From positions 1 to 64,000 of the IMG/VR virus record IMGVR_UViG_3300046318_000520: a stretch of DNA of 64,000 nucleotides. One strand, 5' to 3'. Shown here piece by piece: positions 16,740-57,999 of this stretch. The notes beneath the pieces were generated by a model. That model searched no databases and was not told the DNA's origin. It saw nothing but the letters and a program-made list of their open reading frames with translations. Origin of the DNA: a virus. A program made the position numbers and the translations under genes. Within the stretch, counting starts at the first letter, position 1. Each line of letters starts with the position of its first letter.

Positions 16740-17144
16740 ATGATTGAAAATTTATTTAACTACATCATTGACTCTAGTGGAGTGATTCAAAACAAAACTA
16801 CTGGCAAGATTCTTAAAGCTCACCTGTTAAAAGGTTATCCAACAATAAGTTTACGAGACCAAGAAGGAAAGAAAAAAAACTATCTAGTTCACAGACTTGT
16901 AGCAATGACCTACATACCTAATCCAGATAACAAACCTTTTGTGAACCACTTAGATGGAGATACTACAAACTTTAAAGTAGATAATCTTGAATGGTGCACG
17001 CAGAAAGAAAACATATATCATTCTAGAAATTTAACTGGAAACGGTTCAGTTATTTCAAAAAAGAAGTTACTGGAACTATACAGTGAAAATCCTGAACTGA
17101 CTCTTGAAGCTTTTATCAAAGTGGTTACAGAAAACTGCAACTAA
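16740..17144 (+). CDS. Free-standing HNH endonuclease (homing type)
   Basis: 134 residues. An N-terminal NUMOD-like part (residues 1-50, YIIDSSGVIQNKTTGKIL) leads into the HNH core: VHRLVAMTYIPNPDN (His51), VNHLDGD (His70) and VDNLEWCTQKEN (Asn82, Glu84, Trp85). This is the usual architecture of phage homing HNH nucleases that make a nick or double-strand break in an allele lacking the gene. It is not inside an intron: the flanking genes are intact and lie on either side of terminator and promoter sequence. The C-terminus is short (~40 residues), so a specific DNA-recognition domain is limited. Confidence 0.85.
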   Translation: MIENLFNYIIDSSGVIQNKTTGKILKAHLLKGYPTISLRDQEGKKKNYLVHRLVAMTYIPNPDNKPFVNHLDGDTTNFKVDNLEWCTQKENIYHSRNLTGNGSVISKKKLLELYSENPELTLEAFIKVVTENCN

Positions 17145-20758: not shown

Positions 20759-21118
20759 ATGAAACTATTTTCAACAGTAAAACTTTCTACTTACAGTTGC
20801 CAGTTTACAATCATGGTAACCGATGAACTAATTCAACAAGTTAATGCTGTTTATAAAAAACACAAACTTAATGCTGAGTTTGATATACCGGCAGAAGGTG
20901 TGATGGTTTCACCTACTATGAGTCACTACTATATAATCATAGACGAGGACTGTCTCTCTCACAATACAATAGCCCATGAAGCTTTTCACACAGTGAACAG
21001 GATTATGACAGACCGGGACATACATGATGAGGAATCAGGAGCGTGGTTATCCGGACATATTGCAAGTGTTATTTACAAGTTTTTAGACAAGAAGAAGTTA
21101 CAAATAAAACATGGCTGA
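20759..21118 (+). CDS. Small zincin-like metallopeptidase
   Basis: 119 residues. HEAFH at 73-77 provides the two His ligands and catalytic Glu74 of a gluzincin; a third acidic ligand is probably Glu91 or Glu92 in HDEESGAW. Hydrophobic segments flank it. This looks like a stand-alone minimal phage metallopeptidase. Its stop overlaps the start of the 1,568-residue tail gene by 8 bases, so it is made together with the tail proteins and might process a virion protein. The catalytic motif is seen; the substrate is inferred. Other HExxH motifs occur in the giant proteins downstream. Confidence 0.75.
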   Translation: MKLFSTVKLSTYSCQFTIMVTDELIQQVNAVYKKHKLNAEFDIPAEGVMVSPTMSHYYIIIDEDCLSHNTIAHEAFHTVNRIMTDRDIHDEESGAWLSGHIASVIYKFLDKKKLQIKHG

Positions 21119-35845: not shown

Positions 35846-35867
35846 TTATATTATATTATAGACCTAT
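35846..35867 (+). promoter_or_regulatory. Promoter-like element that runs into the start codon
   Basis: This 22-bp stretch (TTATATTATATT, A, then TAGACCTAT) differs at one position from 12362-12383 upstream of the surface cassette, where the middle base is G. Its last two bases are the A and T of the ATG at 35866. If the box fixes the transcription start, the mRNA of the 1,049-residue gene would be leaderless or nearly so. Confidence 0.5.
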
Positions 35868-39038: not shown

Positions 39039-42000
39039 ATGGCAGTTCCTACTGGTGTTATTCCTGAAGAATTAATGGGTGCGTATTCAGAAGATCCTTT
39101 TCTTTCTTTACCGGCTCAATCAGAGCTTGGTATGTTAGACCTGATAGGTAACACAGGTATGAGTCAGGGACCTGCTGTACAGGATGCTGTACAAAACGGC
39201 CTGGATGCATTTGCAAAACAACCAACAAGTATGGAAACCTTGTCGGCTCCCAGGTTTTTTGACTATGAAGGAGCTCAGACAGACAGGTACAAGCAATCTG
39301 ATAATTTCAGGGAGCTTGGATTTGATCCATTTGGAGGAACAGAAAACGAATACAAGTACGGTGCCCGCCAGACATGGGGTGACGTATGGAGTAATGGTTT
39401 AAGCGGTATGTTTAAGCTGGCCGGTAATACTTATTTGGAAGGATGGAAAGGCTGGGGTAACCTGGCTGATGCTGTTTATTCTGACGGCAACTGGTTTAAT
39501 GCTGATAAGTTAATGGGTTCTTCTGAAGAACTTTTGGCTCAGGATAAGGCTACTAAGGATATTATGAACAAGTATGCCATCTTTTCTACACCTGAAAGTG
39601 AAGAAGGTTTGTTCAACAGGAAGTTCTTTGGTGACATGTTGCAGCAATCAGGTTTTGCCGTAGGCGCCATAGGACAGTTTCTGACAGAGGAGCTTATAAC
39701 CATGGGACTTTCTACAGAATTTTCCCTGGCTAAACTGGGTATAAAGGCACCGGCGTGGGCTGGTAAAGTTGTAACTAAAGCTGACATAGCTGCTGATATT
39801 GTTAAGTTGGGTAATCCTGTAGTGCAGTCAACAAGATTATCTGAGGCACTTGTACAAGGTGCTCGTAGCATAGTTCCGTTTGCTGACATGGCTTATGATA
39901 TTAACCGGTATAAAAAAGCCGGAGCTGGAGCCTTACAAATAGCTTCTATTGGAGCAGGTGGTGTAAGGCGTTTTTTATCAGAGGCCAACATGGCTATGAC
40001 TGAGGCTCGTATGGAGGCTGCCGGTACTTATGGAGAGCTGTATAATAAACTTTATGATGAGTCTTTAAATGCAACAGGTCAGGCACCTTCTGGTCTAGAG
40101 CTTAACAATATGGAAAAGACAGCTAAAGATGCTGCCTTTGATAACTTTATGGTAAACACCGGCATTTTGATGCTGTCTAATCGTCTGCAGTTTGATAATC
40201 TGTTCAGCAAATTTGGTGTTGGTAGAAATGTATTGGGAGCTGCCGGTGAATACGCTGATGATGTATTAAAAGTAACAGGAAAAAGAGCAGGTCAGGAGGC
40301 CGTAGAAAACTTTACCAAGACATATGCCAAAGGTCGTTTTGGTACATTAGGTGTCCTTGGAGGTATAGCTGCTGATTTTGGAAAGAAACGTGCAGCCTGG
40401 GAAGCTACAAAGTCTTTTGGTAAGAATTTGTTTAAATGGGAAGCTTCCGAAGGTATCCAGGAACTATTACAAGAGGGATCAAACAAGGGACTGCAGGACT
40501 ACTACTATGATCTATACCATGGTAACAAGGGATATGACAGTAAAACGGATGCTATGCTTAGCAGCATTCAGAATCCTTTGACAGACCTGGAAGGTGCAAA
40601 GACATTTCTTATGGGTGCCCTTACAGGAAGGTTGCTTTCCCCGATTAACTTTGCAATGGGCTCTGCTAAAAAGTATGCAAGTACCACGGCTGAACAAAGA
40701 GCAGAACGTACAGCAGATCTTGAAAAGACTGTTTTTACAATAAATGCGTTTTATGAAAATCCTCAGCTGTTTTTAAACGAACATATTGCCAACGTAAAGG
40801 TCCAGGACAGGGCAGCTAAAAATATGGAAGAGGCGGTTGTTAACCGTGACAAGTACCAGTTTGTGAATAACAAAGACGGTGCGTTTGCCAAGCTTATGTC
40901 TGCAGCCATGAAAACAGATATGTACAAGGCTGTAACAGATACTATTCGTGGCTATGGAGAAAACTTCAACGATGAGGATTTCAAGAAAGCTTTTGGTATT
41001 GACAAGACAGAAGAAAACATGTCTTCTGTAAAGGATTATTTTAATAAGATAGCAGACGAAACAGACAGCTTCCAGAAAAACTGGAAGGCGTTAAAAGAAA
41101 AATACGGTGACAGGGTGCTACTGGATTTATACAAAGAGGGTACACCTGAGCGTAAAACAGCTCTGATGGCTAAGCGTGCTTTGGATGACGCCTTGGAAAT
41201 ACTGGCTACTAATAATTATAAGGCAACCAGGTCTGCAGAAAGAGCTGTTAAGTTACAAACAGATATGGCTGCTATTCCTGTATTGGGTAGTTCTGCCGCA
41301 GCTGCATTCCGTAACCTGGCCGTTGTACAAAACACGGCTAAGGAAACAGAGCTTATAGAGCAAGAGTTAAAGAGCCTGGAGCTTGTAGAGAAAAAAGACA
41401 GGGCCACTAAAGAGCTTATCAAAACAAAAAAAGAACAGCTTAAGAGTCTAAAAGACTGGAGTGAAAACTATGAGGTTCTGAAAGGCCAGGGGGTCAAGCA
41501 AAAACGCAAGTTTAAAAAAGCTGTTAAGGCATTTGAAAACTATTTCAGGTCTAAGAACATGGAGTCTGGTATTACCCAGGAAGTTAAACTTGATCAGATA
41601 GATGAGATTTATACTAATCTGATAGATTACATTGAGCTTAATAATGATAGCAAAGACTATATAGATGCTTATAATATAATAGCTAATCCTATTAAGTTTG
41701 CCCAGGTGCATGCTAGATTATTAGATGCCATGGAAGTGACAGGTAATAAGCTAAATGCAGAACACCTTCAAGAAGCAGCAAATGCATTAAATCCACAGGC
41801 ACCTCCTGCTGGTAACCCTCAACAACCTGGTGGATCACCTTCTACTGAGGCTCCTGATTTTATGCAGTATTTAAAAGATGCATGGGATTCACAGACTGTT
41901 ACAGGATCCACTACATTACCATTTGATGAATGGTTAAAATCTCCTGTAGCCAAAACATTTACAGAGCTTTATAATAAAAAGTATAACAAGACTGAAAAAT

Positions 42001-45000
42001 TGGGCAGTACCAGCAATGAATTAGCTGTCCTTAAAAATGATCTATTAAACAATACACTCACAAAGGAATATTTAGAAAGCTTTAATGAAAGGCTTAGTAA
42101 AATACTTAACCTGCCTATTATAAAAGTACAAGAACTTTATGATCAGTTTCAGAAAGCATTAGACCCTAAGCAGGTAGAAAAAGATATTGCTGAAATGGGC
42201 TTTCCTGAAAACCCTACAGCTGAACAGGTTTTCCAGACAGTTAGCAAATACCTGCTGCCTAAATTTATTGATAGCCTTATTAACGCCGGATCTACTGAAG
42301 GTGGTAATATAGTTGGCTCTGATAAAGCCAACATGGAAGTTATAGAACTTCCTGCAATGAAAATAAAGTTAACAAAGCCTGCTCTTTTTGAAGGGGAAAA
42401 ACTTGTTGATGACGGTAAAAACGGAGTGTTTATTATAGAGACCGGTTTAGTAGCTGATCAGGCTAAACGTGATGAACTTATGAAGTTGATGGGTGCTGGC
42501 TCAACGGCAGGTGCCCCGGTTACAGCATTTATTGTTGTTAACTCTGATAGAGTAGATCCTGTAACATTAAGCAGTGATCTTGTAAGGTATCAAAAGAAAT
42601 CTGAAGCTTATACCGTAAGGGATGAGGCAATTAAAAACAGGGAACTGCAGGATAAAAAATCCAGATCATGGTACCAATTTGATGGTAAGGAAGTAAGAGC
42701 AGGCCTTGTTCTTACAAATAAGGATGGTAAATCCTTTGTTGTTGCCACAACGGGGCAGCCTTATTTTGCAAAGGATGATGTAGACAAAAAAGTTCCTTTA
42801 ATTAAAATTACCATGCTGCGTAATAACTCACGCACTAATACACATAGTTTTATATCCAGCTTAGAAGGATATAACATCAAACAAAAGGTTGAAAAGTTAA
42901 GCACAGGAGAACCTGTAGACACCAATACCTTTCGTTTATTTCGTACAGAAGAGCTGTCTCGTATCTTTCCTAACAAAGCAGCTAATGAGAGTAAGGAGGA
43001 TGCACAGAAAAGACTGGATACTCTTTTGAAAAACACAGATCCTAAAGAACTTCTTGCTGGTCTGTCTATTACTGTTTCAGAAAACCCAGGAACTCGTAGT
43101 TCAAAAAATGCAGGTGCTGATAGTGATAAAACACCTAATTCCAACCTTATACAATATGGTGATAAGTATCAGATTCAGATTAGTTATAAAGGACAAACTA
43201 TTGGTTTTTTAACTAACTATGATCATTTAAGGTTTGTAACTGCCAATGGTACACCTGTACCTATGAGCAATCTTACGCTTGATCAGTTTAGAAGCATTTT
43301 TGATTCTCAGGGTAAGGATCCAAAAGAACAAATGGAACTGTTCAAACGTGCGTATGAAAATTCCAGAAAAGTATATATTGCGCTGACCAAGAACATAAAG
43401 CCTGGTCAACCTGTATCTTTTACACCTGAACAAGTAGCTAAGATCTTAACAGTAAATATTGGGGCCGGTGAGTTTGACTTTGTACCAAAGACAGAAAAGG
43501 GAGTAACTTATGATGAGCTTCCTTTTAAAACAATCAATGGTTATTATTATATACTGGATCGTTCCAAGCGTTATGGCAAAGGTTACACTTTCTCAGTGAC
43601 TGAAAATGCTATTACCAATGCAAAAGGTGATGACCGTAAACAGATTGAAAAAGAAATAAAACTAATCAGGCAGCAGCGTGATGCTACAGAACAGCTTGGT
43701 CGTTACGTAGCTGTTATAAAACTACCCAATGGTAAGATAAGGTTTGTTGAACTGAATACAGAAGCAATGGCTGATACTCAGTTGAATGATATAATCACCA
43801 AGTTGAATGAACGCAGTGAAATCACTAAACGTGATAACCTGCAGGAAGGGCTCAATGAAAAGAAAGAGGTTATTCAAAACCGTAAGAAGATAGATTTTAA
43901 TGAAGAGCTAAATTCAGAGCTTGCTCAACAGTTGTTTCTTTCTGTACCCCAGGCTAATAAAGGAACCTACATAAACTTTTCTATTACAGATACTGGTAAC
44001 CTGGAACTTGCTTTTCATAAAAAAGTGGATAATAAAGATATCCGCAGGTCAGTTGTGGTCATGGGTAAGTCTGGCAAGGATCCAATTAATATCAAAAATA
44101 TTGATGATTTAATTAGCAGGATAAATGCTGCTATAGAGCGTCATGATAAATCATTTGCCAAGCGTGAAGTTGATCAGATTGGAATTACATTAAAAAAAGA
44201 AAACTTTAAACAGTCTACTCCGGATACATCTTATATTGATGATGTAAAAGGACTGAGGTCTAATGTTTCTGCAGATATTAGTAAGAATATACCTTTAACC
44301 ATTAAAGCGTCTTCAGATCTTAATATTCCGGAAATAACACCTGCACCTGCAGGAAATGCAGCCAACAAAGGTCAGGCTGATAGCAGTGGTATTGATCCAG
44401 CTATGAGAGCTGCCTTTTTTAAGGAAATGGGTGTAGAGGATACTACTAAGGGGCAGTCTCCTGCTCCAGGACAGCAACCTACTGAAACACCACTTCAGGC
44501 TTTATACGCACAACTTAATAGTCTTAAAAGTGAAAAAGAACTTGAGACTATAAAGCGCAGGGATGAAAAGATTGCTGCCGGTCAAAGACCATCTTTGGCA
44601 ATGCTTGAAGCTAATGATGAATCTTCTGCTATATATGATAAAAAGATTAAAGAGGCACAAGCCAAGGTAAATGCAGAAAAGAACTCAAACAAAGGTTCTG
44701 CACTTAAAGTTCTTGATAAACCATTCTTTGATCAGAACAGTATTGTAAGCATAGACAGGTTTCGTAAATACATCAGTAGAGTTTTAGGTGATAAAGTATC
44801 TGTCCAGGAAATGGATATGATAGCTGATAACTTAAAAAATAACAACATTACAGTAGGTAAGTTTATTGCCTACATGGAGTCAGTAAGAAAGGGAAGTCCT
44901 GTTGTAAAAGGTCGTATTGAGGTGGGTGAAAACACACCTTTTAAATACCATGAGGCATTTCACGCTGTATTCCGTTTGATGCTTACTGATGCACAAGTGG

Positions 45001-48000
45001 ACAAGCTGCTGGCCTATGCAAAAATGGAGTTTAAGAAAAGCCTTCTTCCTGGTCAGACTGTTGTATCTAAGATGGCTGAGATGCGTCAGCTGCATAAAGT
45101 ATATGCAGAGATGACAGATGTAGAGTTAGAAGAAAGAATGTATGAAGAATATATGGCCGATCAGTTTGATACATGGAAGATAAACCAGGATTCTAAAAAG
45201 GTTATTCCAGGTATTCGTGGCTTTTTTATGAAGCTCTGGGACATGATTACTTCTTTATTTAAGGGTGGCAAGAATCAATTAGAATCACTCTTTAAAGAAA
45301 TTGAACGTGGTAAGTACAGAAACGCCAAGATAGCGGACAATCGTTTTACCAAAGCTGACGCTCTTAGTGTTAGTGAGCCTGTGCTCAAAGCAATACAGGT
45401 GGGTACAATAGATGTACAGGATGAGAATGGTCAGTTTATTACTATACCTAAGTACCTGTCTCAGCAGGACGGGGATCAGATGGCAAGTACAGTAGCTTCT
45501 TTGTATCATAGCAGGGTTTTGAATAACACAAACAGCGGCTATAATAAGAAAGAAGTTTTAAATAATATATATGCAGATTTCCAGGAGCTCTATGACATCA
45601 ATGGAGCCAATCGTGAGTTTTATCTTAATGAAGCAGATGCTCTTTTTGAAACTGATCCTAACCTGGCAAAAGAATATCTTAACAGACTTGAACAAAGACA
45701 TACTATATTCTTAGAAAAAGACAATCGTCAGACTCTTTCTGAGTCAGTAGATATCCATCTTCGTGTAATGGGATACCAGCAGGAACTGGAAGATGATGAA
45801 TATATATCCATGGAAGACGAGTTTGGTTCCAGGGTTACTACTGAAAACTGGAAAGAAGCACATTCTATTGGTGGCTTTGGAAGCTTGAGTAAGTTTTTAC
45901 GTCAGTATATAGCATCTACTACTTTTATTCTGGACCGTGATGAGTTTGGAAATACCCAAATGGTTAACGGAGAACCATTGATCCAGGCTGTTAATGCCAA
46001 CCTTGTTTACAGCGGTATTTTAAAAGCCGTTGCTAACATTACAGATCAGAAAAAATTTGTCAACAGGCTTCTTGAATTAAAAAGTGCTGATACAGAAACC
46101 AGTAAGTTTCTAAATAAATTCTTTGATGAAGTTGGTCTGGAAATAGATCCTGATACAGGAGAGTTTGCAGTTACAAATTCAAAGCAGGCTACTTTATTTC
46201 AGATGGTTCTTAAAGGTTTTCAGCAGTATACAGTGGATTACATCTTTATAAACAAGGATGTACGTAAGTCTAAGAAGGTGTCAAGGCTTATGATTGCCAA
46301 CCGTATGGGAGCTGTTAAAGCACAGTTTACACAGTGGCAGAATGCGTATGTACATGTTTTTGAAGAACCTGTATTAAGACTTCGTTCTATTGAGGAGAGA
46401 AAAGAATTTGCTAAAGAAAAAACAGGGGCCCTGCAAGACTTGTTAACAAATCTTAATCCTACTGGATACATTTCTGATGAAGAACTGGCACTTGATTCTG
46501 AGATGTTAAGCAATCAGCTTAAGACAGATTTAGGTATTTCTTTATCTCCTTTGTATATTAAGTACGCCATAGCAGCATCTAAGAATGCTGATATAAAAAC
46601 TGAGGCTCAAAGAAAACTTAGTGAAAGCTATAGTGACGTTGTTGGTATTGATCCGGATGCTATAAAACAATTGATCAAGTCTGTACAGGCTCTGGAAAAT
46701 CCTTTTGCTAAAAACATTGAACCATCAAACCAGGATTTGGATGTTCCCGGACAAGATGATGACCAACAGGAAAAAGAGGCTATTGACAGCCTGGGAGAAG
46801 GAGGAGCTATAAAACGTGTTAGTGAGCTGGCTGCCGGTAATGCCGTCTTTGATGAGACAGTAAGCACTACTTCCTATAAAAATGCAGAAGGTGAACTTGT
46901 GTATGCGCATCAGCTTCCTACATATCATTTGGTTAAAGTAAATGAGTTCAACAATGATACTGAGCTGACTAACATGCAAGTATCTGACGAATTTATGCAG
47001 GGTAATATGTTGCTGGATTCTGCCAAGTTCCGTTCTATGAGCGGTGACTTTGTTGTAGAAAGAATTGAAGGAATGAAAAGCTCTATTCTTTCTGAAGATG
47101 AAGATGGTAATTTAAGAGAGGATAAAACAATTCAGAGTAACCAAAATGAGGGGATCACTTATGGATCATTCTCTGACCGTGAGTTCATTGTTTCTTTGTT
47201 GGATCTGTATGCTTATAATAAAACATATAAGAATACAGCAGGTACATTTAGAACAACACAGCATCTTATAAGAGTTATTGAAGCCTCTAATACAGGAGAT
47301 ACTATTTCACTGCCTGCAATTTCTGCTGTTACTTCTGATCAAAACGGCAAAGTAACATTAAGTCAGGAAGCGTTGACTATCCTGATGCAGGAAGTTGCCC
47401 GTGAGTTTGAACGTATCAAGCGTGTACGCAGAGAACTTGCCACTGGTGTATATGAGAATGGAGAAATTGAGGGATATCATTACGCTGTAGATGGGGATGG
47501 CCGCAGGACTAATAAAAAGGTTCCAAGGGGTCTGAAGTTTTACAAGACGGCTAATATGCTTGGAAGCCTTGCTTTGGAACTGGAAGAGTCATCCAGGAGC
47601 GGATCATTTGATTTAAGCTCCCGTGCAGCAGAAATCAATGCCCAATTTAAAAGATACTGGGAAGCCAGGATGGAAGAATTTGTAGACAAGCTTGATAACA
47701 TTGGTGTAGTAAGTACTGTAAAAAGTGAAGACCCTGAAGAAAACGGTAGGCTTATTAACAACCTGGTTGATGATTTTATTGAAATTGGTTTTACTGTTAA
47801 AGATGACGGTAAAGAAATACTGGATGAAAAAAGGAATCAAGATCTGAATATTATCCCAGGTAATATGAAACACAACCTGGGTCAGATCATGATGAATGAT
47901 TATCTAAACACAATGGCTGTAAATCAGCTTTTGTATGGAGATGAAGCCCGTGCCTTTAAAGATGAGATTGATCAGGTCAAGCGTGCAAAAGGAGCTAACG

Positions 48001-51000
48001 GTTCTGGTCAGTCTTTGGAGTCCTTGGTAACTAATGAAGAATTGGGTATTACAGAATCCTTCACTGAAAGTTATATATTAACTTTTACAGATCCTAAATA
48101 TAACGCCCGTTTTGCAGGTGGACTTAAAGATAAAGCAGATGCTCAGTCTTACCAGAGTGTGAAGTCAATGAGGTATACACTTCATGGACTTGGAAAACTT
48201 ACTCCGTATGCTGCCAAGATCCTTGATAAACTTGAGCGTGGTGACAAGCTTACCAAAGAAGAGGTATTTGGTCCTAGTGGTCTCAAAGCCATGGAAGCTA
48301 TGTTTAACTCTGAAAAGCTTGTTTACTTTGATGGTCCTCAGTATATCAAGACTTCTACAGTAATGCTTACAAAGGAATTGACTTCTGTATTGGTGAATGG
48401 TAAATGGCTTGCACGTCCTGGATATGAAGATCTGCACGACTTACGTGAGCGTCTTGAAAAGTTTGAAAAAGACAATAACACAGTAACTTTTGCTGCTCCT
48501 AAAAGTGCCAGCAAGGGACTTAAGAGAAATGTTTTTGATCATAATGAAGGGTTTCGTAATGCAAAAGATGATAACTTTTCCCGCCAAGAAACCAAATACT
48601 GGAGACTACAGTTGGTAAATCCTTCTAATAAAGTTATGATAACAGATCCTACGCAGGCAAAACAAATCATTATTGCAGAACAGAATGATGATACCTCTGT
48701 AGAATTTATGGGTGTTAACACCACTATTGGTGAACTTAAAAAAGCTTATTTAAACGATACAGCTCAGCGTGTCAACAATAACTATACAAGAACCAGAGAT
48801 GAAATATTTGACATAGAAGAAGGTTTCTCTGAACTTGGTAAAGCTATTCAGCAAGATAAAATATCTTCAAAGCTTGAAAAATTCCAGGCCAGGGCTATAG
48901 AAAATCTTAGGTCTACTGGGGCTGACAGCCAGCTTATTGAATTTTTCTCATTGGATCCGGAAACAGGAAAACCTAATTACAACCTGAACAATCCTGTCAC
49001 TCTGGAAAAATACACACAGCTGTTTCTGGCTTATTTTTCAAAAGGAGTACTTAGTGAAAAAATTCCTGGTCACTCTGTTGCTTTGATGTCTAACTACGGT
49101 ATAAAAGTAGTTAAAGTATTTACAGGTAAGTTTGACGAAAGCGGAGCACCTATTGGTCAGATTGTATCCAGGGATGAGGTTGAAAGAAACTACAACAAGT
49201 ACAAGAGCGTTAAAAAGTGGAACAACGATGTTGATCGTCAGTTTACAGGTCTTGTTGCCGGTGACATATACCTTGATGATTTAAGGCATAATGTACCAGA
49301 GTTTGATAGCAAGGGTAAAATCATAGGACGGTATACAGAGTTTATGATGCCTCCTCACTTCATGGAAGATATGGGTCTGAAACCAGGGGATAAAATACCT
49401 GACCATATAGCCAAAGCATTTGGAGTGCGTATTCCTTCACAGGATAAACATAGCTTTATTTCTCTTAAACTGGTAGATTTTCTACCTGCTTATTACGGAT
49501 CTACAGGTGTGTTCCCACATGAGCTGATTGAAATATCCGGAGCTGACTTTGACATTGATAAACTCTATATGCACATTGCAGATACGTATTCCAAAAATGG
49601 TAAGCGTATAGCATATGGTACAGAGAAATCCAAGACAGGCCGGTTTGAAGAATATGTACGCTGGAATGATAAAAACAATAAAGCATTTAGAGATACTTTA
49701 GATAAACTTAAAAAAGAGAATGTAAGATACCAGGAGCTTTTACAAAAGCAGGCTGCTATGAAACGTCTTGAAAAAGATATTGACAAAGCGTTTGATAATG
49801 TCCAGCAGAGTGATGGGTCAATTAAAGAAGGTTTTAACACGGCTATTTTGAGTGCAAGACTTGTAGATCAGGTTATAATGGGGCTTCTTGGTCAGGACCA
49901 AAATCTTGATGTAAAACAATATGACACTGAGTATGGTCTTATTGAGAGTGTCTACTTTATGAAAGATCTCAATGAGATGTTGAACAAGTTGGAAGAAAAA
50001 GACAAACGTGATTACTTGTTAGCAATGGGTTCTGACTTCTTCAATCAATTTGAAGACATCACAGCAAAGCTTGCAGATGTAGAAACAAGGCTTATTTCTG
50101 AGACACTTGCTGAATTAAAACTCCCCAGTTCTATTACTAAATATGCTGAGTCAGCTGAAGAATTGAACAACGGCGTGCTAAACAACCGTATCCTGGATCA
50201 AAAGATTGCAATGCTTAACAATGAGCATATGGTTAGCGGTGGAGAAAAGGCCATTGCTTATCAGGTAGCTTCTGTGGATGCATTAAAAAATCTTCTTGAT
50301 GAAAGCAAAGAAGGTAATTTGTTAGAGCTGCTCTCTATAGGTGTGGATGAAAATGGTAAAAAAATATATCCGGAAGGGCTTGCTGAGATCTTGTTGGAGG
50401 GTGGGGTAGATACTGACTCTATGCTTGGTAAGTATAAGGCATTTAAAAACAATAAGGAGGGTAGTCGTCTTATCGGTCCTGCTGTAAATTCAATGCTTAC
50501 ATATGCAGTGTTTAATAACTTTGGTATTTCATTACGTGATACAGCTATTGATCCAATAACCGGTGAGACTATTCAAATGTTCAAGTTTAAACTGAATGGA
50601 CATGTGTTCACAGGGTATAATGAAACCCGTAGTGCAAGGTTTGATGCTGAAGGCAAGTTCCAGGGCTATGATGGAGAGCGTGTATTTAATACTATTTCCA
50701 CTATTGTATCAGCTATGACCGATAACGCCAAAGAACGTTTGGCTGCTCGTCTTGGTTTGAATATAGAAGCTATAGGATATGTATCCAACATGGTTGCACA
50801 GGGTGTACCTATACAGTCTGCTATTATGTTTATGCTTCAGCCTGTAGTGCGTGAGTACTTTGAGCTTACAAAGATTGCATCTAATAATATTAAGACTGGT
50901 GCAGAAAGTGAAATTTACAAATCACAAGTTGCTAAAGAACTCAGGAATAAATATCTTGAACTGGCAGGTGAGGACTTTGTAAAAGAAGATATCACTGATG

Positions 51001-53414
51001 AAATATTAGTTGAAAATATAAAAAACAAAGGTGCCAGTGCTAACTATCAAGCTTCTGTTCTGTTAGACTTTATAGGTATTATAGATCAAAGTAAATATTA
51101 TGCAGCTGTAGCTCAGGTGTTAAAACTTACTAAGGGTCTTGGTACAAGTTTTGAAGACTATGATGCTATCAATGACAAAATTGAGATGCTGGGTCTAAGA
51201 GTTAGTGACGATAAACAATTTGAAAAGTTTATTCCGCAAGGACAGACAACACCTCCGCCTTTTGATCTCAGACAGATTCTCATGGGCTATGATAATGATA
51301 AACCTTATCATACAATTATTCAGCGTTATATCAAAATTGCTGATCAGATCAGTGAGATCAGTAAAGGTATGTTCCTTGAAAGAACTGCTGTGTTTAAAAG
51401 GATTGAAAATATCATTAAAGATAACTTGACAGTAAGATCCAGCTTGAAACAAAAGTTTAATTCAGATCTGAAAAAAGATCTGCTGTCATATCTTTCTATT
51501 AAAGCATATCGTAAATACCTTGCTGAAAATGGAAGATCAGGAACTCTTTCCACTATGACCAATGCTTTGATTTATGATGAAGCAGCTGTAGCAAAGGGTG
51601 ACAAGTTTAGTGATATAGTAGACGTTTTACGTGTAATCAGGGAGAAAATGCCAAATAACTATTTGGCCTCTAACTTTTTAAACATGATAAAGACCACTGT
51701 GGTGGACGCATCAGGTAATGCATCTCTTAATCCTAAAAACCGTGATGGTATTAATAAGATTGAGTCTAATACCTGGGCAAAACTTAGTGAGTATCAGGTA
51801 GAAAAGCTCCGTGATTCCTTTATAGAGATTTACCAGTCTGACATGGACTTTGATGGACAGGGTGCTAATGGACGTGACATGGCTAATGCTTTGTTTAACT
51901 ACCTGCTTGTAAAAGATGGTGGTCAGTTTAGAAGTGGTTCATTTATCAGGTATGTTCCCAATTTTATGTTCAATGATCTGTTGATGTCCACTGGTTTGGC
52001 TAATGATGTTATGAAGCTTTCTGTAAAGGCTGATAACGTAGATCAGATGGACGAGGCGTATAAAAAAGTGTTTGGTATTACTGCTGTAGAACTGTTCAAC
52101 GAGTTTATGGAAAACTATACCACACATGTAGGAAACTCTTACTATGTTAAAAAGCTTAGCTTAAATAATGAAACTAAGTTTGATCCTACAGGAAACTCTG
52201 AAATAGATGGTTTTGAACCTCAGTCTGTGGTTCCCAGCAAGAAAGAAGGATTTATTATTAACATATTTAAAGGTGTAAGAAAAAAGGAGCAGGCTGTATC
52301 TGAAATTACCCTTGAGGAACAAGCAGGTATTACATGGATGAGTGATGAAGATTATTTAGAGTATGTGGATAGCTTGACTGATGAACAAAAAGAGTTAGTT
52401 AAAGAACAACAGGCTAAATCCAAAAAGTATAATGATGTAGAGAAAGGTAAGTTTGCTAAGAACATGCAGTCTCTCAGGGATAAAGGGTTTAGAACAAACA
52501 CCAAGAACGAGGTAGAGTTTCCTTACATTATCAGGGTACCCGCCGGTGAAATGTTTACTGCAGATAGTTATTACATTCTTAAGTCTGTAAGAAAAGCTGG
52601 TCAGAACAAGGATAAAAAAATAGATTCTAAAAAGCTGATTCAGAAAAATGAAACTATTGCAGCAGGTGTTTCTGCAGTGTATGAGCCAGTTGAAAGAAAA
52701 GGATCCAGAAAAACCTTTAAAGGAGCTGCTATGTTTGATGCAATTCCTGAAACAGCTAAGCTTCCACGTTACCGTAAAGCGGTTGATAACAATTCAAGTT
52801 ATTCTCCTTTTTACCAGACAATGAATGCAGATGCTGAAAAAGAAGAGCTCTGGATGCAGAATCATGGTTTTGCACCAAAAGATTCTACTAAGGCGGCACC
52901 TGTTTCTGCACCTGTAGATACAGGCTCAAGGTCTCCAAAGGATGTACTTTTACAAGACTATGGTATCCAAATGAAGTATGACAGTGTTTTAAAAATGTTT
53001 ACCTTTGTTGGAGATATTTTGAATGATATTCCAGATGATATAAAATCCTCAGTAGGAGGTAATCCAAAAACACTTCTTTCTATGCTTGGATACAAACCTA
53101 CAGCTCCTGCTCCTCAGGTTCAGCAAGCTTCTCCACTACCTGCAGGCGTTCCAAAAATCAGCAAAGAAGCTGGAAAAGGAATATCAGATATGAACATGCG
53201 TAATAGCTTAATGGCCGCCATGTTTGGTCAACCTGCAACGTCTACTCCGGAGTCTACTCCTGGTGCAGGATCTCCTTCTGCAGGAACTAAAGTTGATGAT
53301 GTTACATTGAGTGAAACAGCGGCTAAAGGTATCTCTGATATGGAGAAGTATAAACAGCTTATGAGAGCAATGAATGGTGAAAATCCACTCAATGATGAGT
53401 GTGCCCAGCCATAA
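39039..53414 (+). CDS. Giant virion-associated RNA polymerase polypeptide (crAss-like type) with metallopeptidase motif
   Basis: 4,791 residues in one frame. The N-terminal part (1-~910) is helical and contains a hydrophobic stretch AVGAIGQFLTEELITMG (~210), as in internal ejection proteins. Pro/Gly linkers near 920 and 1765-1820 mark domain borders. HEAFH at 1971-1975, with EEYMADQF (Glu2036/2037) as likely third ligand, is a gluzincin signature. The polymerase signature is GADFDIDKLYMHI: Asp3503, Asp3505 and Asp3507 form the metal-binding DxDxD triad, and the context FPHELIEIS...ADFDID aligns with beta-prime HPLVCKAFN...ADFDGD. Crass-like phages package such a polymerase (phi14:2 gp66) to transcribe early genes. 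The normal DFDGD has Ile for Gly here. The C-terminus carries two copies of a KGISDM motif. Which part is cleaved or injected is inferred. Confidence 0.8.
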   Translation: MAVPTGVIPEELMGAYSEDPFLSLPAQSELGMLDLIGNTGMSQGPAVQDAVQNGLDAFAKQPTSMETLSAPRFFDYEGAQTDRYKQSDNFRELGFDPFGGTENEYKYGARQTWGDVWSNGLSGMFKLAGNTYLEGWKGWGNLADAVYSDGNWFNADKLMGSSEELLAQDKATKDIMNKYAIFSTPESEEGLFNRKFFGDMLQQSGFAVGAIGQFLTEELITMGLSTEFSLAKLGIKAPAWAGKVVTKADIAADIVKLGNPVVQSTRLSEALVQGARSIVPFADMAYDINRYKKAGAGALQIASIGAGGVRRFLSEANMAMTEARMEAAGTYGELYNKLYDESLNATGQAPSGLELNNMEKTAKDAAFDNFMVNTGILMLSNRLQFDNLFSKFGVGRNVLGAAGEYADDVLKVTGKRAGQEAVENFTKTYAKGRFGTLGVLGGIAADFGKKRAAWEATKSFGKNLFKWEASEGIQELLQEGSNKGLQDYYYDLYHGNKGYDSKTDAMLSSIQNPLTDLEGAKTFLMGALTGRLLSPINFAMGSAKKYASTTAEQRAERTADLEKTVFTINAFYENPQLFLNEHIANVKVQDRAAKNMEEAVVNRDKYQFVNNKDGAFAKLMSAAMKTDMYKAVTDTIRGYGENFNDEDFKKAFGIDKTEENMSSVKDYFNKIADETDSFQKNWKALKEKYGDRVLLDLYKEGTPERKTALMAKRALDDALEILATNNYKATRSAERAVKLQTDMAAIPVLGSSAAAAFRNLAVVQNTAKETELIEQELKSLELVEKKDRATKELIKTKKEQLKSLKDWSENYEVLKGQGVKQKRKFKKAVKAFENYFRSKNMESGITQEVKLDQIDEIYTNLIDYIELNNDSKDYIDAYNIIANPIKFAQVHARLLDAMEVTGNKLNAEHLQEAANALNPQAPPAGNPQQPGGSPSTEAPDFMQYLKDAWDSQTVTGSTTLPFDEWLKSPVAKTFTELYNKKYNKTEKLGSTSNELAVLKNDLLNNTLTKEYLESFNERLSKILNLPIIKVQELYDQFQKALDPKQVEKDIAEMGFPENPTAEQVFQTVSKYLLPKFIDSLINAGSTEGGNIVGSDKANMEVIELPAMKIKLTKPALFEGEKLVDDGKNGVFIIETGLVADQAKRDELMKLMGAGSTAGAPVTAFIVVNSDRVDPVTLSSDLVRYQKKSEAYTVRDEAIKNRELQDKKSRSWYQFDGKEVRAGLVLTNKDGKSFVVATTGQPYFAKDDVDKKVPLIKITMLRNNSRTNTHSFISSLEGYNIKQKVEKLSTGEPVDTNTFRLFRTEELSRIFPNKAANESKEDAQKRLDTLLKNTDPKELLAGLSITVSENPGTRSSKNAGADSDKTPNSNLIQYGDKYQIQISYKGQTIGFLTNYDHLRFVTANGTPVPMSNLTLDQFRSIFDSQGKDPKEQMELFKRAYENSRKVYIALTKNIKPGQPVSFTPEQVAKILTVNIGAGEFDFVPKTEKGVTYDELPFKTINGYYYILDRSKRYGKGYTFSVTENAITNAKGDDRKQIEKEIKLIRQQRDATEQLGRYVAVIKLPNGKIRFVELNTEAMADTQLNDIITKLNERSEITKRDNLQEGLNEKKEVIQNRKKIDFNEELNSELAQQLFLSVPQANKGTYINFSITDTGNLELAFHKKVDNKDIRRSVVVMGKSGKDPINIKNIDDLISRINAAIERHDKSFAKREVDQIGITLKKENFKQSTPDTSYIDDVKGLRSNVSADISKNIPLTIKASSDLNIPEITPAPAGNAANKGQADSSGIDPAMRAAFFKEMGVEDTTKGQSPAPGQQPTETPLQALYAQLNSLKSEKELETIKRRDEKIAAGQRPSLAMLEANDESSAIYDKKIKEAQAKVNAEKNSNKGSALKVLDKPFFDQNSIVSIDRFRKYISRVLGDKVSVQEMDMIADNLKNNNITVGKFIAYMESVRKGSPVVKGRIEVGENTPFKYHEAFHAVFRLMLTDAQVDKLLAYAKMEFKKSLLPGQTVVSKMAEMRQLHKVYAEMTDVELEERMYEEYMADQFDTWKINQDSKKVIPGIRGFFMKLWDMITSLFKGGKNQLESLFKEIERGKYRNAKIADNRFTKADALSVSEPVLKAIQVGTIDVQDENGQFITIPKYLSQQDGDQMASTVASLYHSRVLNNTNSGYNKKEVLNNIYADFQELYDINGANREFYLNEADALFETDPNLAKEYLNRLEQRHTIFLEKDNRQTLSESVDIHLRVMGYQQELEDDEYISMEDEFGSRVTTENWKEAHSIGGFGSLSKFLRQYIASTTFILDRDEFGNTQMVNGEPLIQAVNANLVYSGILKAVANITDQKKFVNRLLELKSADTETSKFLNKFFDEVGLEIDPDTGEFAVTNSKQATLFQMVLKGFQQYTVDYIFINKDVRKSKKVSRLMIANRMGAVKAQFTQWQNAYVHVFEEPVLRLRSIEERKEFAKEKTGALQDLLTNLNPTGYISDEELALDSEMLSNQLKTDLGISLSPLYIKYAIAASKNADIKTEAQRKLSESYSDVVGIDPDAIKQLIKSVQALENPFAKNIEPSNQDLDVPGQDDDQQEKEAIDSLGEGGAIKRVSELAAGNAVFDETVSTTSYKNAEGELVYAHQLPTYHLVKVNEFNNDTELTNMQVSDEFMQGNMLLDSAKFRSMSGDFVVERIEGMKSSILSEDEDGNLREDKTIQSNQNEGITYGSFSDREFIVSLLDLYAYNKTYKNTAGTFRTTQHLIRVIEASNTGDTISLPAISAVTSDQNGKVTLSQEALTILMQEVAREFERIKRVRRELATGVYENGEIEGYHYAVDGDGRRTNKKVPRGLKFYKTANMLGSLALELEESSRSGSFDLSSRAAEINAQFKRYWEARMEEFVDKLDNIGVVSTVKSEDPEENGRLINNLVDDFIEIGFTVKDDGKEILDEKRNQDLNIIPGNMKHNLGQIMMNDYLNTMAVNQLLYGDEARAFKDEIDQVKRAKGANGSGQSLESLVTNEELGITESFTESYILTFTDPKYNARFAGGLKDKADAQSYQSVKSMRYTLHGLGKLTPYAAKILDKLERGDKLTKEEVFGPSGLKAMEAMFNSEKLVYFDGPQYIKTSTVMLTKELTSVLVNGKWLARPGYEDLHDLRERLEKFEKDNNTVTFAAPKSASKGLKRNVFDHNEGFRNAKDDNFSRQETKYWRLQLVNPSNKVMITDPTQAKQIIIAEQNDDTSVEFMGVNTTIGELKKAYLNDTAQRVNNNYTRTRDEIFDIEEGFSELGKAIQQDKISSKLEKFQARAIENLRSTGADSQLIEFFSLDPETGKPNYNLNNPVTLEKYTQLFLAYFSKGVLSEKIPGHSVALMSNYGIKVVKVFTGKFDESGAPIGQIVSRDEVERNYNKYKSVKKWNNDVDRQFTGLVAGDIYLDDLRHNVPEFDSKGKIIGRYTEFMMPPHFMEDMGLKPGDKIPDHIAKAFGVRIPSQDKHSFISLKLVDFLPAYYGSTGVFPHELIEISGADFDIDKLYMHIADTYSKNGKRIAYGTEKSKTGRFEEYVRWNDKNNKAFRDTLDKLKKENVRYQELLQKQAAMKRLEKDIDKAFDNVQQSDGSIKEGFNTAILSARLVDQVIMGLLGQDQNLDVKQYDTEYGLIESVYFMKDLNEMLNKLEEKDKRDYLLAMGSDFFNQFEDITAKLADVETRLISETLAELKLPSSITKYAESAEELNNGVLNNRILDQKIAMLNNEHMVSGGEKAIAYQVASVDALKNLLDESKEGNLLELLSIGVDENGKKIYPEGLAEILLEGGVDTDSMLGKYKAFKNNKEGSRLIGPAVNSMLTYAVFNNFGISLRDTAIDPITGETIQMFKFKLNGHVFTGYNETRSARFDAEGKFQGYDGERVFNTISTIVSAMTDNAKERLAARLGLNIEAIGYVSNMVAQGVPIQSAIMFMLQPVVREYFELTKIASNNIKTGAESEIYKSQVAKELRNKYLELAGEDFVKEDITDEILVENIKNKGASANYQASVLLDFIGIIDQSKYYAAVAQVLKLTKGLGTSFEDYDAINDKIEMLGLRVSDDKQFEKFIPQGQTTPPPFDLRQILMGYDNDKPYHTIIQRYIKIADQISEISKGMFLERTAVFKRIENIIKDNLTVRSSLKQKFNSDLKKDLLSYLSIKAYRKYLAENGRSGTLSTMTNALIYDEAAVAKGDKFSDIVDVLRVIREKMPNNYLASNFLNMIKTTVVDASGNASLNPKNRDGINKIESNTWAKLSEYQVEKLRDSFIEIYQSDMDFDGQGANGRDMANALFNYLLVKDGGQFRSGSFIRYVPNFMFNDLLMSTGLANDVMKLSVKADNVDQMDEAYKKVFGITAVELFNEFMENYTTHVGNSYYVKKLSLNNETKFDPTGNSEIDGFEPQSVVPSKKEGFIINIFKGVRKKEQAVSEITLEEQAGITWMSDEDYLEYVDSLTDEQKELVKEQQAKSKKYNDVEKGKFAKNMQSLRDKGFRTNTKNEVEFPYIIRVPAGEMFTADSYYILKSVRKAGQNKDKKIDSKKLIQKNETIAAGVSAVYEPVERKGSRKTFKGAAMFDAIPETAKLPRYRKAVDNNSSYSPFYQTMNADAEKEELWMQNHGFAPKDSTKAAPVSAPVDTGSRSPKDVLLQDYGIQMKYDSVLKMFTFVGDILNDIPDDIKSSVGGNPKTLLSMLGYKPTAPAPQVQQASPLPAGVPKISKEAGKGISDMNMRNSLMAAMFGQPATSTPESTPGAGSPSAGTKVDDVTLSETAAKGISDMEKYKQLMRAMNGENPLNDECAQP

Positions 53415-53442: not shown

Positions 53443-56400
53443 ATGCCCTGCCAGCTATTTAGAACAGATGGTAAAGTTGACCGTGTGCTTGCTCCTAATG
53501 AGCAGCCTTCCAACTTGTACAAGGAAATTTTAACTACTGTAGAAAAAGAAGGACCTAAAAAATTTATTGATCAGATGCCGTACCTGCGTGATCGTTTGGA
53601 TGACGGCACTCTTTTAAATGAATCTGCAGAAGAAATAGCTGTTGGTATATGGAGCATTGCGTATAGTCCGGAGTATCAGACTTTTTTTACAAACATGAAC
53701 AAGGCTCTTGGCATCTTTGCAGATGAGAACGGGGAACCTAAGTATAATGTTTTTCAGGCTAATGTTTTAAATCAGGGATCTAATTTTAACAGGGTTAGTC
53801 CAGGATACGTTTTGGATCCGGAAAGAGCAGCTTTTGTAAAAGGTGCCACTAAGAGAGGTAATGCTTTACAGCAGAAGATTGTTGAAGAATTAATTGAAAA
53901 ACCAGCTAATCCTGTAGTGCTTGAACCCAATGAGCATGTTTATATTGATCAGGACGGAGAAGTATATACATCTGTAACAACTGCCATTAAAGGTAAACTT
54001 GAGAACGATGCCTATGCTGTAAACAGGGATTATGGTACTTCTATTGATAAGCTGCTGCAAGGTGTTATCCTGGGTCAGTCTTTTGATGTGGCTACTAAAG
54101 ATATAACTAATATTGATAAGCAGAAGCTAAGCACATTATTTACTCTGTTACAAGTTTATGTGGAAGGTCTTACCAGAGACGGATCAATTATTATGACGCA
54201 GGTTGCTTTAGGTGATAAAACATCCAGGATTGCCGGTTCTTTAGATATGCTGGTAATATCACCATCAGGTAAAATGAAAGTGGTAGATTTAAAAGTATCA
54301 AAAAATAGTGTAAAAAACGAAGGATACAACAGACCCTATGATGTAAAAGCAGGATCTGTATTTCCTGGTCAGAAACTTTCAACAAGGCAACAGCACGGTA
54401 TACAGGTAGGTACTTATAAAAAACTCATTGAGCTTGCAGGTTTTGAAGTAGAACAGGTTCAAACACTTCATATCAAGCTTGATCTGAATTCTGATAAAAG
54501 TATAAATGATATCAAGTGGGAAGGTGAACTAACACATCCCTTGTCTCTTAATAAAAACTTTGTAGATGCTGTTATTCCTACTGAAATAGAACCAAGGAAC
54601 AGAACAAATGAACTCAAAAAAGAACTGGGTGTAGATAATCCTGCAGAAGATGAGGATTTTTTGAATGACGATGAAAGTAAACCTGAAAGAGAAGTTTTTG
54701 GTGATATGTATGAACGCATGTACCAGGAAGCTAAAAGTGTTGTAAACCTTCTTGATTCCCGTAAAAAGTATTTGGAAAAAATCCGTAAGGGCAAGACTCA
54801 TCTTGATAAGGAAGTAATGATTGATAAAATCAATGAGATCATTGTCATGATGGGGTCTGAGCTAAAAATTGAAAGACCTTCCGTAGCCTATGGTGCCTTT
54901 TTAAGATTTGCCATATCAGAGGTTAAAGATTATCTCAAAGAGATTACAGATCCTAAAAATGCAACTAATTCTGATTATGTGGCAATGCTTCTAGAAGTAG
55001 ATAAGTACATAGAGTCTTACAGAGGTATTGTAAACGTAAAAGGAGTTGGTAGTAAAGAACAGCAGCTTATGCTGTTGGAACTGATGGATTTGCTGGACGA
55101 TACCAAAGAGGCTATAGATGACAATCTGGAAACTTATGTAAAAAATGTTATAAGCAAAAATACATCCAGGGATCTTACCAAAGAAGAGTTAGACAGTATT
55201 GTAAAAGAAGTCTATGATATCAAAACTGAGGATTATTATCTTGGTGACATGGCTACCAGTACCGATACATTATTAGCTATTGCTGACAAAATATTTAAGG
55301 CAGCTTCAAACAGAGCTAAAGATACTTCTGAAGCTACCACATCCAGAATTCTTAAGCTTGGTGCTTCTTTATTAAAGATATCAGGATTTTCCAAACCTCC
55401 AGCCAACTTTTATGACTTCATGAAAGTCTTTGATAAAGCTGGTAAGTTTACAGGGCGTTTTGTTTCAAGAGTAGGGTCTGCATACTGGGAGAAATACTAT
55501 GAATTAAAAAATAAAACCAAGGAAAAAAACGGTGAAACTAAGCAGTACATACCTATTCTTGATCCTGCTAATGCCAGCCAGGATGATATTAACTACAACA
55601 TAACCCTGTTTTACGATAAGAGTAACTATCGTGATTTTATGAATGCTGAAATACTTGGTCCCAATGGAGCAGAAGACGGCAAGTTTCATAAATATTCTGA
55701 TTCTTTTAAAACTATACGGGCCCGTTACCAGGAACTGGTACAATATGATAAGCCTGATGGTACTGTATTTTACAAGTGGGAAAAGAAAACAGGTGTAACT
55801 GATGATCAGTATGAGCAGTTTCGTTTAAAATACTTTAATGAAGTAGATTATTGGGGTGCCCAGATGGAAACAGACGGTACATTTAAAGGTAGAGTAACTT
55901 TAAAGACCGGCTATTTTGCAAAGTATGAGTTTATAGAAGTGCGGGATATTGCAGAAGATGGTACTGATCTAAGAGATTCAAAGTATACAAAACTGATGGA
56001 TCCAAAAACTGAACTGGAAAAAGCCCAGTCTGACTTTTATAAGGCATGGGTTGAAGAATATAGCAACGCCCTGGAAAAACTTCCTCCTGATGTAGCAGCA
56101 CAAATGAGGGGAAAGGTAAGCCGGGTCAGGGGATCTTTTATGGATACCCTTAAAAGCAAAGGTCCTGGTTTTACCAAAGCTGTTTCAAAAAGCTTAAAGC
56201 AATTTTTTTCTTCAGAGGTGTATACTAATCAACGATTGGTAGATGAGCTTGGACAAATAGACCGTGGTTTACCTATTCTATATGTGGGAAAGCTTCAGAA
56301 TGAGGGCCGTGTAGAGTATCTAAAAAATGAAATAAACAAGCTTAAAGAAAAAAGAGCTACAGGAAAGATTGGTTTAAAACCATATCAGGAAGAAAAAAAG

Positions 56401-57999
56401 AAACTCAAAGAGTATCTCAAAATAGAGGAAGGTAAAGTTAAAGCTGGTGAGATAGAAAGTGATTTGGTTACAAACCTGATTGCTTTTACTACAATGGCTG
56501 AGAACTTTGAAGTGATGAGTAATATTGAATCTGATCTGCAGGCTATTGCCAAGGTGATGGATGACCGTATATACTATGAAACAGATTCTTTAGGAAATAA
56601 ACTGATACGTAAGGGATCTAAAGCTACCAAAGATGATGAAGGTAAACCGGTTATCAAGCGTAGTGAAGATGTCATGGCTACAAAAAGATTGCGTAAATGG
56701 TTTAAAATGGTGTATTATAATAACCAGGAATTTAACCGCAGCACTGTTGCAATGGTTGCTTCCAGGATACAGAATCTTACATCATTGAAAGGAGTTGGTT
56801 TTAACGTTTTTGGTAACATAAACAACTACATCATGGGTCGTATAAACACCTCAATAGAAACAGCAGGTGCCTTATACTATGACCGTCCGGCTGCCAACAG
56901 AGCAGTAGGGGAATATAACAAAGATTATTTACCTGGTGTATTCAGGGGTCTGGGGAAAAGCAAAGATAGCTACTATGCTGAAAAAGAATCCAACAGTAAG
57001 TATGAGGCTTTAGTGGATAGATTTAGAATAGTACGGAAATTTCAGGCTGATTCAGGTAAAGTAGATCCAATGTCATGGGCCTACATGCTGCAGGAAGGCG
57101 GTGAATATAACGTACAAAGTAAAACTGGTATTGCTATTCTGATGTCTAAACAGATTACTAATAGTATTACAGGTGAGACCCTTAGTATTTATGATGCCTT
57201 TGACTTTAATTCAAACACTGGTGAGGTTAAACTTAAGACCGGTTATAATCTTTCAGATAAAGAACGGTATGATATCACCAATTATATATTGGAAGTTAAT
57301 AAGCAGATACACGGTAACTATGCCTTTGAAGATCGTATGATTATTCAGGAAGGCTGGCTTGGTCAGCTTGCTGCTCAGTTTCACAAATGGGTATATCCTG
57401 CTTATAAAGTGAGATTTAAAGGCCGTTACCAGGATGAAAATCTTGGTGATGTAGAAGGCAGGTATGTAACCGTCATGAACTTCATCAAGTACATGAAAGA
57501 GTCAGAGGGAAACTTCTTTGAAAAGATGAGAGAAGGTTGGCAGTCAATGGATGCCGTACAGGTAAAAAACATGTATAAGAATCTGGCAGAATTGGCATTT
57601 TTTGCTGGAAGCTTTGCTATGTACGGTATATTTAAAGCATTGGCTGAAGGTGTTGATGATGATGATGTAACGCTAAAACGCTGGATAAATTTTATGTCAT
57701 ATCAGCAAAGTCGTCAGATGAATGAGGTTTCTACAATGATGCCTGTAGTAGGTTTTGAAGAACAGTATTTATTAGCCAAGTCACCAATAGCAATTTTAAC
57801 AACTTTAAAAGACTTTGGTCAGGCTTTGAAATCAACATTGCTTTTACCTTTCCCACCGTATGATAAAAACTATTATGAACGCGGGCCAAGAGATGGTGAT
57901 TTAAAAGCATGGAAAGAATGGAAAGATATTATTCCGGCTCTAAGTGTCCTTAACAAATGGGAATCTTATGATCAGGTAAAAAGTTTCTATATCAAATAA
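53443..57999 (+). CDS. Large internal virion protein with N-terminal PD-(D/E)XK nuclease domain
   Basis: 1,518 residues. Residues ~165-345 form a RecB/Cas4-like nuclease: GTSIDKLLQGVI (helix), AGSLDMLV with Asp268, VVDLKVSK with Asp282-x-Lys284, then TRQQHGIQVGTYKKLIE (Gln316-Tyr) as the QxxxY-like motif. The rest is long and helical; near the C-terminus QFHKWVYPAYKVRF and LGDVEGRYVTV occur, sequences I associate with C-terminal parts of giant crAss-like virion proteins. It follows the RNA polymerase gene by 28 bases and ends the rightward transcript at a strong terminator. A virion nuclease could trim or degrade DNA at entry, or the domain may be structural; the active residues are present. 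Confidence 0.75.
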   Translation: MPCQLFRTDGKVDRVLAPNEQPSNLYKEILTTVEKEGPKKFIDQMPYLRDRLDDGTLLNESAEEIAVGIWSIAYSPEYQTFFTNMNKALGIFADENGEPKYNVFQANVLNQGSNFNRVSPGYVLDPERAAFVKGATKRGNALQQKIVEELIEKPANPVVLEPNEHVYIDQDGEVYTSVTTAIKGKLENDAYAVNRDYGTSIDKLLQGVILGQSFDVATKDITNIDKQKLSTLFTLLQVYVEGLTRDGSIIMTQVALGDKTSRIAGSLDMLVISPSGKMKVVDLKVSKNSVKNEGYNRPYDVKAGSVFPGQKLSTRQQHGIQVGTYKKLIELAGFEVEQVQTLHIKLDLNSDKSINDIKWEGELTHPLSLNKNFVDAVIPTEIEPRNRTNELKKELGVDNPAEDEDFLNDDESKPEREVFGDMYERMYQEAKSVVNLLDSRKKYLEKIRKGKTHLDKEVMIDKINEIIVMMGSELKIERPSVAYGAFLRFAISEVKDYLKEITDPKNATNSDYVAMLLEVDKYIESYRGIVNVKGVGSKEQQLMLLELMDLLDDTKEAIDDNLETYVKNVISKNTSRDLTKEELDSIVKEVYDIKTEDYYLGDMATSTDTLLAIADKIFKAASNRAKDTSEATTSRILKLGASLLKISGFSKPPANFYDFMKVFDKAGKFTGRFVSRVGSAYWEKYYELKNKTKEKNGETKQYIPILDPANASQDDINYNITLFYDKSNYRDFMNAEILGPNGAEDGKFHKYSDSFKTIRARYQELVQYDKPDGTVFYKWEKKTGVTDDQYEQFRLKYFNEVDYWGAQMETDGTFKGRVTLKTGYFAKYEFIEVRDIAEDGTDLRDSKYTKLMDPKTELEKAQSDFYKAWVEEYSNALEKLPPDVAAQMRGKVSRVRGSFMDTLKSKGPGFTKAVSKSLKQFFSSEVYTNQRLVDELGQIDRGLPILYVGKLQNEGRVEYLKNEINKLKEKRATGKIGLKPYQEEKKKLKEYLKIEEGKVKAGEIESDLVTNLIAFTTMAENFEVMSNIESDLQAIAKVMDDRIYYETDSLGNKLIRKGSKATKDDEGKPVIKRSEDVMATKRLRKWFKMVYYNNQEFNRSTVAMVASRIQNLTSLKGVGFNVFGNINNYIMGRINTSIETAGALYYDRPAANRAVGEYNKDYLPGVFRGLGKSKDSYYAEKESNSKYEALVDRFRIVRKFQADSGKVDPMSWAYMLQEGGEYNVQSKTGIAILMSKQITNSITGETLSIYDAFDFNSNTGEVKLKTGYNLSDKERYDITNYILEVNKQIHGNYAFEDRMIIQEGWLGQLAAQFHKWVYPAYKVRFKGRYQDENLGDVEGRYVTVMNFIKYMKESEGNFFEKMREGWQSMDAVQVKNMYKNLAELAFFAGSFAMYGIFKALAEGVDDDDVTLKRWINFMSYQQSRQMNEVSTMMPVVGFEEQYLLAKSPIAILTTLKDFGQALKSTLLLPFPPYDKNYYERGPRDGDLKAWKEWKDIIPALSVLNKWESYDQVKSFYIK

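Follow-up and report, generated by a model that had tools for sequence, protein, structure and literature searches.

The window analysed here, a 64,000-nucleotide stretch of viral DNA, contains a giant gene that raises the question of what kind of protein it encodes, and whether the length and the polymerase motif of this protein are as unusual as the initial annotation had suggested. Reading of the open reading frames confirmed the single uninterrupted frame described there, which runs from an ATG at 39039 to 53414 on the plus strand with zero internal stops and 4,791 codons. The translation also bore out the positions assigned to its two motifs, HEAFH at residue 1971 and DFDID at residues 3503–3507. 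Taken alone, a DxDxD pattern in the giant protein is weak evidence: shuffles of the same protein gave a chance expectation of 1.5, 42% of the shuffles held two or more copies, and the protein itself carries a second, unrelated one (DMDFD at 4268). The expectation for HExxH was only 0.02, and none of 1000 shuffles contained the G[AS]DxDxDK context in full (searched as G[AS]D[FYH]DxDK). In 18 aligned sequences G662, D664, F665, D666, I667, D668, K669, L670, Y671 and M672 (numbered within the segment 2840–4039 of the giant protein) were invariant. We thus considered the DFDID motif to be real, because it is conserved in aligned relatives.

The identity of the surrounding domain emerged from profile and structure comparisons. 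A tblastn search with residues 3201–4200 matched 116 phage records, mainly crAss-like, with crAssphage gp44 and Cellulophaga phage phi14:2 among them. When the PDB was searched with an 18-sequence profile of residues 2840–4039, the sole significant chain was 6VR4 (E = 9e-32), the phi14:2 virion RNA polymerase; the match extended over three collinear stretches and paired GADFDIDKLYM with GSDFDIDKMYV residue for residue. Only this profile reached 6VR4, as a single-sequence PDB search with 1,400 residues gave no match; the giant protein had no significant match in PHROGs or Pfam, and a nucleotide search against phage records returned no match. Alignment of residues 2116–4791 with Steigviridae polymerases by hhalign (100%, 2e-40, 1697 columns) paired residues 2268–4355 with residues 225–2006 of phi14:2 gp66; the first ~150–200 residues behind the zincin and the C-terminal ~430 had no phi14:2 counterpart. 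The cross controls, N-terminal part against polymerase and polymerase part against gp47, gave no match. An AlphaFold2 model of residues 2840–4039 (pLDDT 71, pTM 0.67) had 6VR4 as its best PDB match in Foldseek (3e-24, prob 1.00, TM 0.56 of query), with QDE-1 next and P23-45 gp96 and RDR2 further down the list, while a second model (residues 1880–2870) again placed 6VR4 on top (2.5e-11). In a viral library the top matches were Virus NIOZ-UU157, cr118_1 and cr50_1. Sequence identity to solved relatives was low, at some 15% by structural alignment. The structure prediction around residue 3503 that the initial annotation had proposed as a check thus yielded, as judged by Foldseek, the fold of a two-barrel polymerase, and its reading as a crAss-like virion RNA polymerase was upheld by profile match, hhalign and Foldseek alike. 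The Asp loop itself (segment positions 663–667) was modeled with a pLDDT below 50, so that the clustering of the three aspartates is predicted from homology rather than from the model. The alternative that an unrelated giant protein carries the motif by chance, for which the frequency expected of bare DxDxD could be cited, is excluded for practical purposes by the invariant context, the collinear 6VR4 alignment and the fold match.

The pentad had been described as an atypical variant of DFDGD, whose isoleucine could change metal or nucleotide geometry. A census of 87 crAss-like sequences yielded DFDID 77 times, DFDVD six times, DFDLD twice, and DNDVD and DHDGD once each; crAss001 and crAssphage have DFDVD, and phi14:2 has the same DFDID within GSDFDIDKMYV. 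Since the phi14:2 polymerase, which has been solved and is reported to be active (PMC7886860; PMC10136315), carries the identical pentad, and since this is the majority form of the group, DFDID gives no basis for assuming an unusual metal geometry, and we rejected a catalytically altered triad. The contrast with DFDGD is correct with respect to cellular-type enzymes, but it holds for the family at large and is nothing special to the giant protein. Judged from these sequences DFDID is the family consensus, and the claim of its oddity is to be dropped. The two single forms belong to locus L052 (DNDVD) and locus L096 (DHDGD), the latter retaining the cellular-type glycine within the environmental clade described below. 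The features of the locus are collected in Table 1.

Table 1 Features of the giant gene and of neighbouring genes, with positions in the window
Feature	Position	Strand	Basis or remark
Giant ORF: N-terminal cargo module, zincin and virion RNA polymerase	39039..53414	+	4,791 aa
N-terminal module, conserved part (residues ~281-860)	39879..41618	+	hhalign; profile positions, close to residue numbers
Predicted zincin domain (residues ~1912-2098; HEAFH at 44949-44963)	44772..45332	+	17-sequence alignment
Fusion junction (residues 2072-2116), apparently a flexible linker	45252..45386	+	AlphaFold2 pLDDT <50
Virion RNA polymerase moiety (residues 2268-4355)	45840..52103	+	hhalign, PDB profile and Foldseek matches to phi14:2/6VR4
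Catalytic DFDID (Asp3503, Asp3505, Asp3507) in GADFDIDKLYMH	49545..49559	+	Aligned with phi14:2 GSDFDIDKMYV in 6VR4
gp49/gp76-type partner, 1,518 aa, separate gene	53443..57999	+	Downstream of giant gene
Tail/virion structural protein	21111..25817	+	Same gene block; Lbo-JY46 and csAssE-Sib homologues over 99% of length

Residues 1 to ~2100 proved to be the counterpart of crAss001 gp47 and crAssphage gp45 by blastp and hhalign. In hhalign, the N-terminal module matched a 1,552-aa protein of Leptolyngbya phage Lbo-JY46 (98.7%, 4e-16), the Carjivirus gp45 family (96.7%, 4e-10) and the crAss001 gp47 family (96.2%, 3e-9), and the record of crAssphage gp45 bears the label 'RNAP associated protein fused to zincin protease'. 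The N-terminus may thus be called ejection-protein-like, as it had been, by virtue of its homology to the crAss001 virion cargo protein gp47, and in no further sense. A 2-residue hhalign match between an Intestiviridae profile and Lbo-JY46 was dismissed as meaningless. HEAFH was invariant in 17 aligned sequences, and so was a Glu pair at 2036–2037, a candidate for the third metal ligand; the gluzincin-type motif recognized initially is therefore present, a downstream Glu accompanies it, and a metallopeptidase is predicted. The zincin matched Suoliviridae sequences in hhalign (96.4%, 1e-9) and residues 2156–2294 of crAss001 gp47 in blastp (E = 0.002), with no match in Pfam. Just after it follows a conserved junction element, GKYxN at ~2091–2096 and then NRFT at 2101–2104 (window 45309–45350). 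In crAss001 gp47 its counterpart GRYSN precedes the C-terminus by about 55 residues, and from this the junction was put at ~2100–2120. In the model of residues 1880–2870 the pLDDT fell below 50 at segment positions 193–237 (residues 2072–2116), apparently fitting a flexible linker, while a thin alignment may also explain the low confidence.

When IMG/VR was scanned with the zincin alignment, 80 loci were retrieved, several of them near copies and not all independent. The zincin (HEAFH) and a DxDxD motif shared one frame in 73 of these; six were truncated contigs, and one (L118) was split by a frame change. Frames of uncut loci measured 4,305 to 5,810 residues from stop to stop, with one short frame of 3,136 (L054), and the giant proteins of Suoliviridae comprised 4,774 aa (cr50_1), 4,946 aa (cr118_1) and 5,443 aa (cr7_1, with TAG read as Gln). 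A review gives ~6000 aa as the length that crAss-like polymerases reach (PMC10136315). The description as an extreme fusion form was thus not sustained, although the fusion does bring the protein to roughly twice the length of phi14:2 gp66. The split frame of L118 indicates that errors large enough to join two genes by assembly or frame artefact do occur in such records; this explanation of the fusion is refuted, with next to no probability left to it, by 73 of 80 loci with variable spacing from mainly separate samples, by the GenBank genomes of Suoliviridae and by the intact frame of L120, a near copy of L118. In L014 we observed an insert of ~900–1000 residues in the polymerase moiety (frame residues ~1750–2990, at about window residue 2800), in which another HExxH (HEYAH) occurs, as well as a region that by eye resembles a SLOG/DprA-type domain; Pfam gave no match for it. 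With homology, domain order, motif conservation, fold match and common fusion all observed, the giant chain is very probably the virion RNA polymerase of an uncultured crAss-like phage, joined to a zincin-ending cargo protein. Its fusion and its DFDID are family norms, and the protein is a new representative of an uncultured lineage.

Comparison with known systems clarified how the parts are arranged elsewhere. The polymerase of phi14:2 (gp66; KC821624 gp077, 2,180 aa, PDB 6VR4) is homologous over residues 225–2006, shares the DFDID context and lies in the same gene block, but it is free-standing, whereas that of the window forms one chain with the zincin-bearing cargo protein, and identity is low. 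The Suoliviridae cr50_1, cr118_1 and cr7_1 show the same order of N-terminal module, HEAFH/HEAWH zincin, DFDID/DFDVD polymerase and separate downstream partner; local matches reach only about 23–34% identity, and the window falls into a separate environmental clade. All three modules have homologues in crAss001 gp47, gp50 and gp49, and gp47 likewise ends in HEAFH and GRYSN; there each module has a gene of its own, that for gp47 lying on the opposite strand, whereas in the window the gp47-like protein and the polymerase are fused. Virions of crAss001 contain gp47, gp49 and gp50 (PMC10172136). In crAssphage (Carjivirus), gp45 corresponds to the N-terminal module plus zincin and gp44 to the polymerase; there the polymerase is joined with the partner downstream and not with the zincin protein upstream. 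The cargo/zincin and polymerase parts are separate genes in Steigviridae and Intestiviridae, and the N-terminal module stands alone in the homologous protein of Lbo-JY46, in whose genome no polymerase was detected within the 100 kb examined. In P23-45 gp96, a virion protein of 5,002 residues, an RNA polymerase occurs together with a metallopeptidase and transmembrane segments (PMC10770324). It shares with the window protein a size of ~5,000 residues and the presence of both a polymerase and a metallopeptidase in a giant virion chain, and differs from it in its N-terminal polymerase, its DFDGD and its nature as a tail tape measure, the Foldseek match being remote (E 0.09).

The source record of 127,703 bases includes genes for TerL, portal, capsid and DNA polymerase. 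PHROG matches were obtained for TerL, portal and major capsid protein, and tblastn with TerL, portal and tail protein mainly matched Crassvirales and neighbouring Flavobacterium/Cellulophaga phages of Bacteroidetes. Going by these matches, the phage carries the hallmark genes of Crassvirales (TerL, portal, major capsid protein, tail protein). ORF layout and homologies indicate that several genes for giant proteins form a transcription block adjoining the virion block, as in Crassvirales. The partner gene downstream matched crAss001 gp49 (1e-23), the C-terminal part of Carjivirus gp44 (2e-13) and phi14:2 gp76 (4e-12) in blastp and 76 phage records in tblastn, while the 1,049-aa protein directly upstream of the giant gene (35866–39015) had no match among phage records. 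The structural block also holds an HNH_3 endonuclease gene (16740–17144), likely a homing endonuclease, and an exonuclease-like gene (17259–18572, PHROG 704), possibly the PDDEXK nuclease that has been reported from this block in crAss-like phages (PMC7886860).

On a quick polymerase tree, with long branches and an assumed root, the window fell into a 40-row environmental clade (SH-aLRT 100), with the three Suoliviridae apart (100); its deeper splits are uncertain, given the long branches of phi14:2 and two loci. Membership in Suoliviridae (delta group) was rejected, as the window lies outside that family on this tree. The nearest relative of portal, tail protein and N-terminal module was Lbo-JY46. 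The portal (L039:12018–14771) and the tail protein lie near this cyanophage and epsilon crAss-like phages, csAssE-Sib in the case of the tail protein, and the N-terminal module lies near Lbo-JY46. With the polymerase grouping with Steigviridae and Suoliviridae and portal, tail and N-terminus placed elsewhere, a mosaic or a deep lineage is possible.

By analogy with phi14:2 and crAss001, the giant chain would be packaged into virions, travel down the tail along with the DNA and refold in the cell, where the polymerase would transcribe early genes off the entering genome via its DFDID metal site; packaging, injection and RNA synthesis are here extrapolated from these relatives. The fusion would fix a 1:1 ratio and have the polymerase delivered jointly with the N-terminal cargo. 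Two proposals for the fate of the chain fall within the reading as a fused virion RNA polymerase and are no alternatives to it. Tentatively, the zincin may act on the host envelope or host proteins at injection, while the polymerase remains bound to the N-terminal module where the DNA enters. Such tethering of a polymerase at the entry site has been proposed for the tape-measure fusion of P23-45 (PMC10770324), and gp96 with its metallopeptidase and transmembrane segments offers a precedent, albeit one with a different domain order and no homology detected outside the barrels; the near-universal retention of the fusion across the environmental clade also fits a tether. More doubtful is a polyprotein in which the zincin or another protease cuts the chain at the linker after ~2100, so that a gp66-like polymerase is freed from a gp47-like protein. 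Here, the N-terminal module ends precisely with the zincin, next to the low-confidence linker, the GKYxN...NRFT element in this linker recurs near the C-terminus of free crAss001 gp47, though it may be a mere part of the zincin fold, and the same parts are encoded separately in Steigviridae, Intestiviridae and Lbo-JY46. Yet unfused gp47 ends in the same zincin, where no cut is needed to free the polymerase, so that the zincin must have had a different job ancestrally. That the zincin itself cuts the conserved junction after ~2100, in the virion or on entry, and releases active polymerase appears quite improbable; if true, it would provide a protease-timed switch for early phage transcription. 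The remaining probability within the reading as a fused virion RNA polymerase goes to an intact chain whose zincin has an unrelated role or none.

Among the gut genomes read, fusion of zincin and polymerase was confined to Suoliviridae, yet it is standard in a broad IMG/VR clade. The arrangement of the blocks differs among phi14:2, crAss001, crAssphage, Suoliviridae and the environmental clade: crAss-like phages keep the three blocks as three genes, join the upstream protein to the polymerase, or join the polymerase to the downstream protein. Because these natural arrangements vary, the role of the fusion and the function of the zincin can be tested by comparing them.
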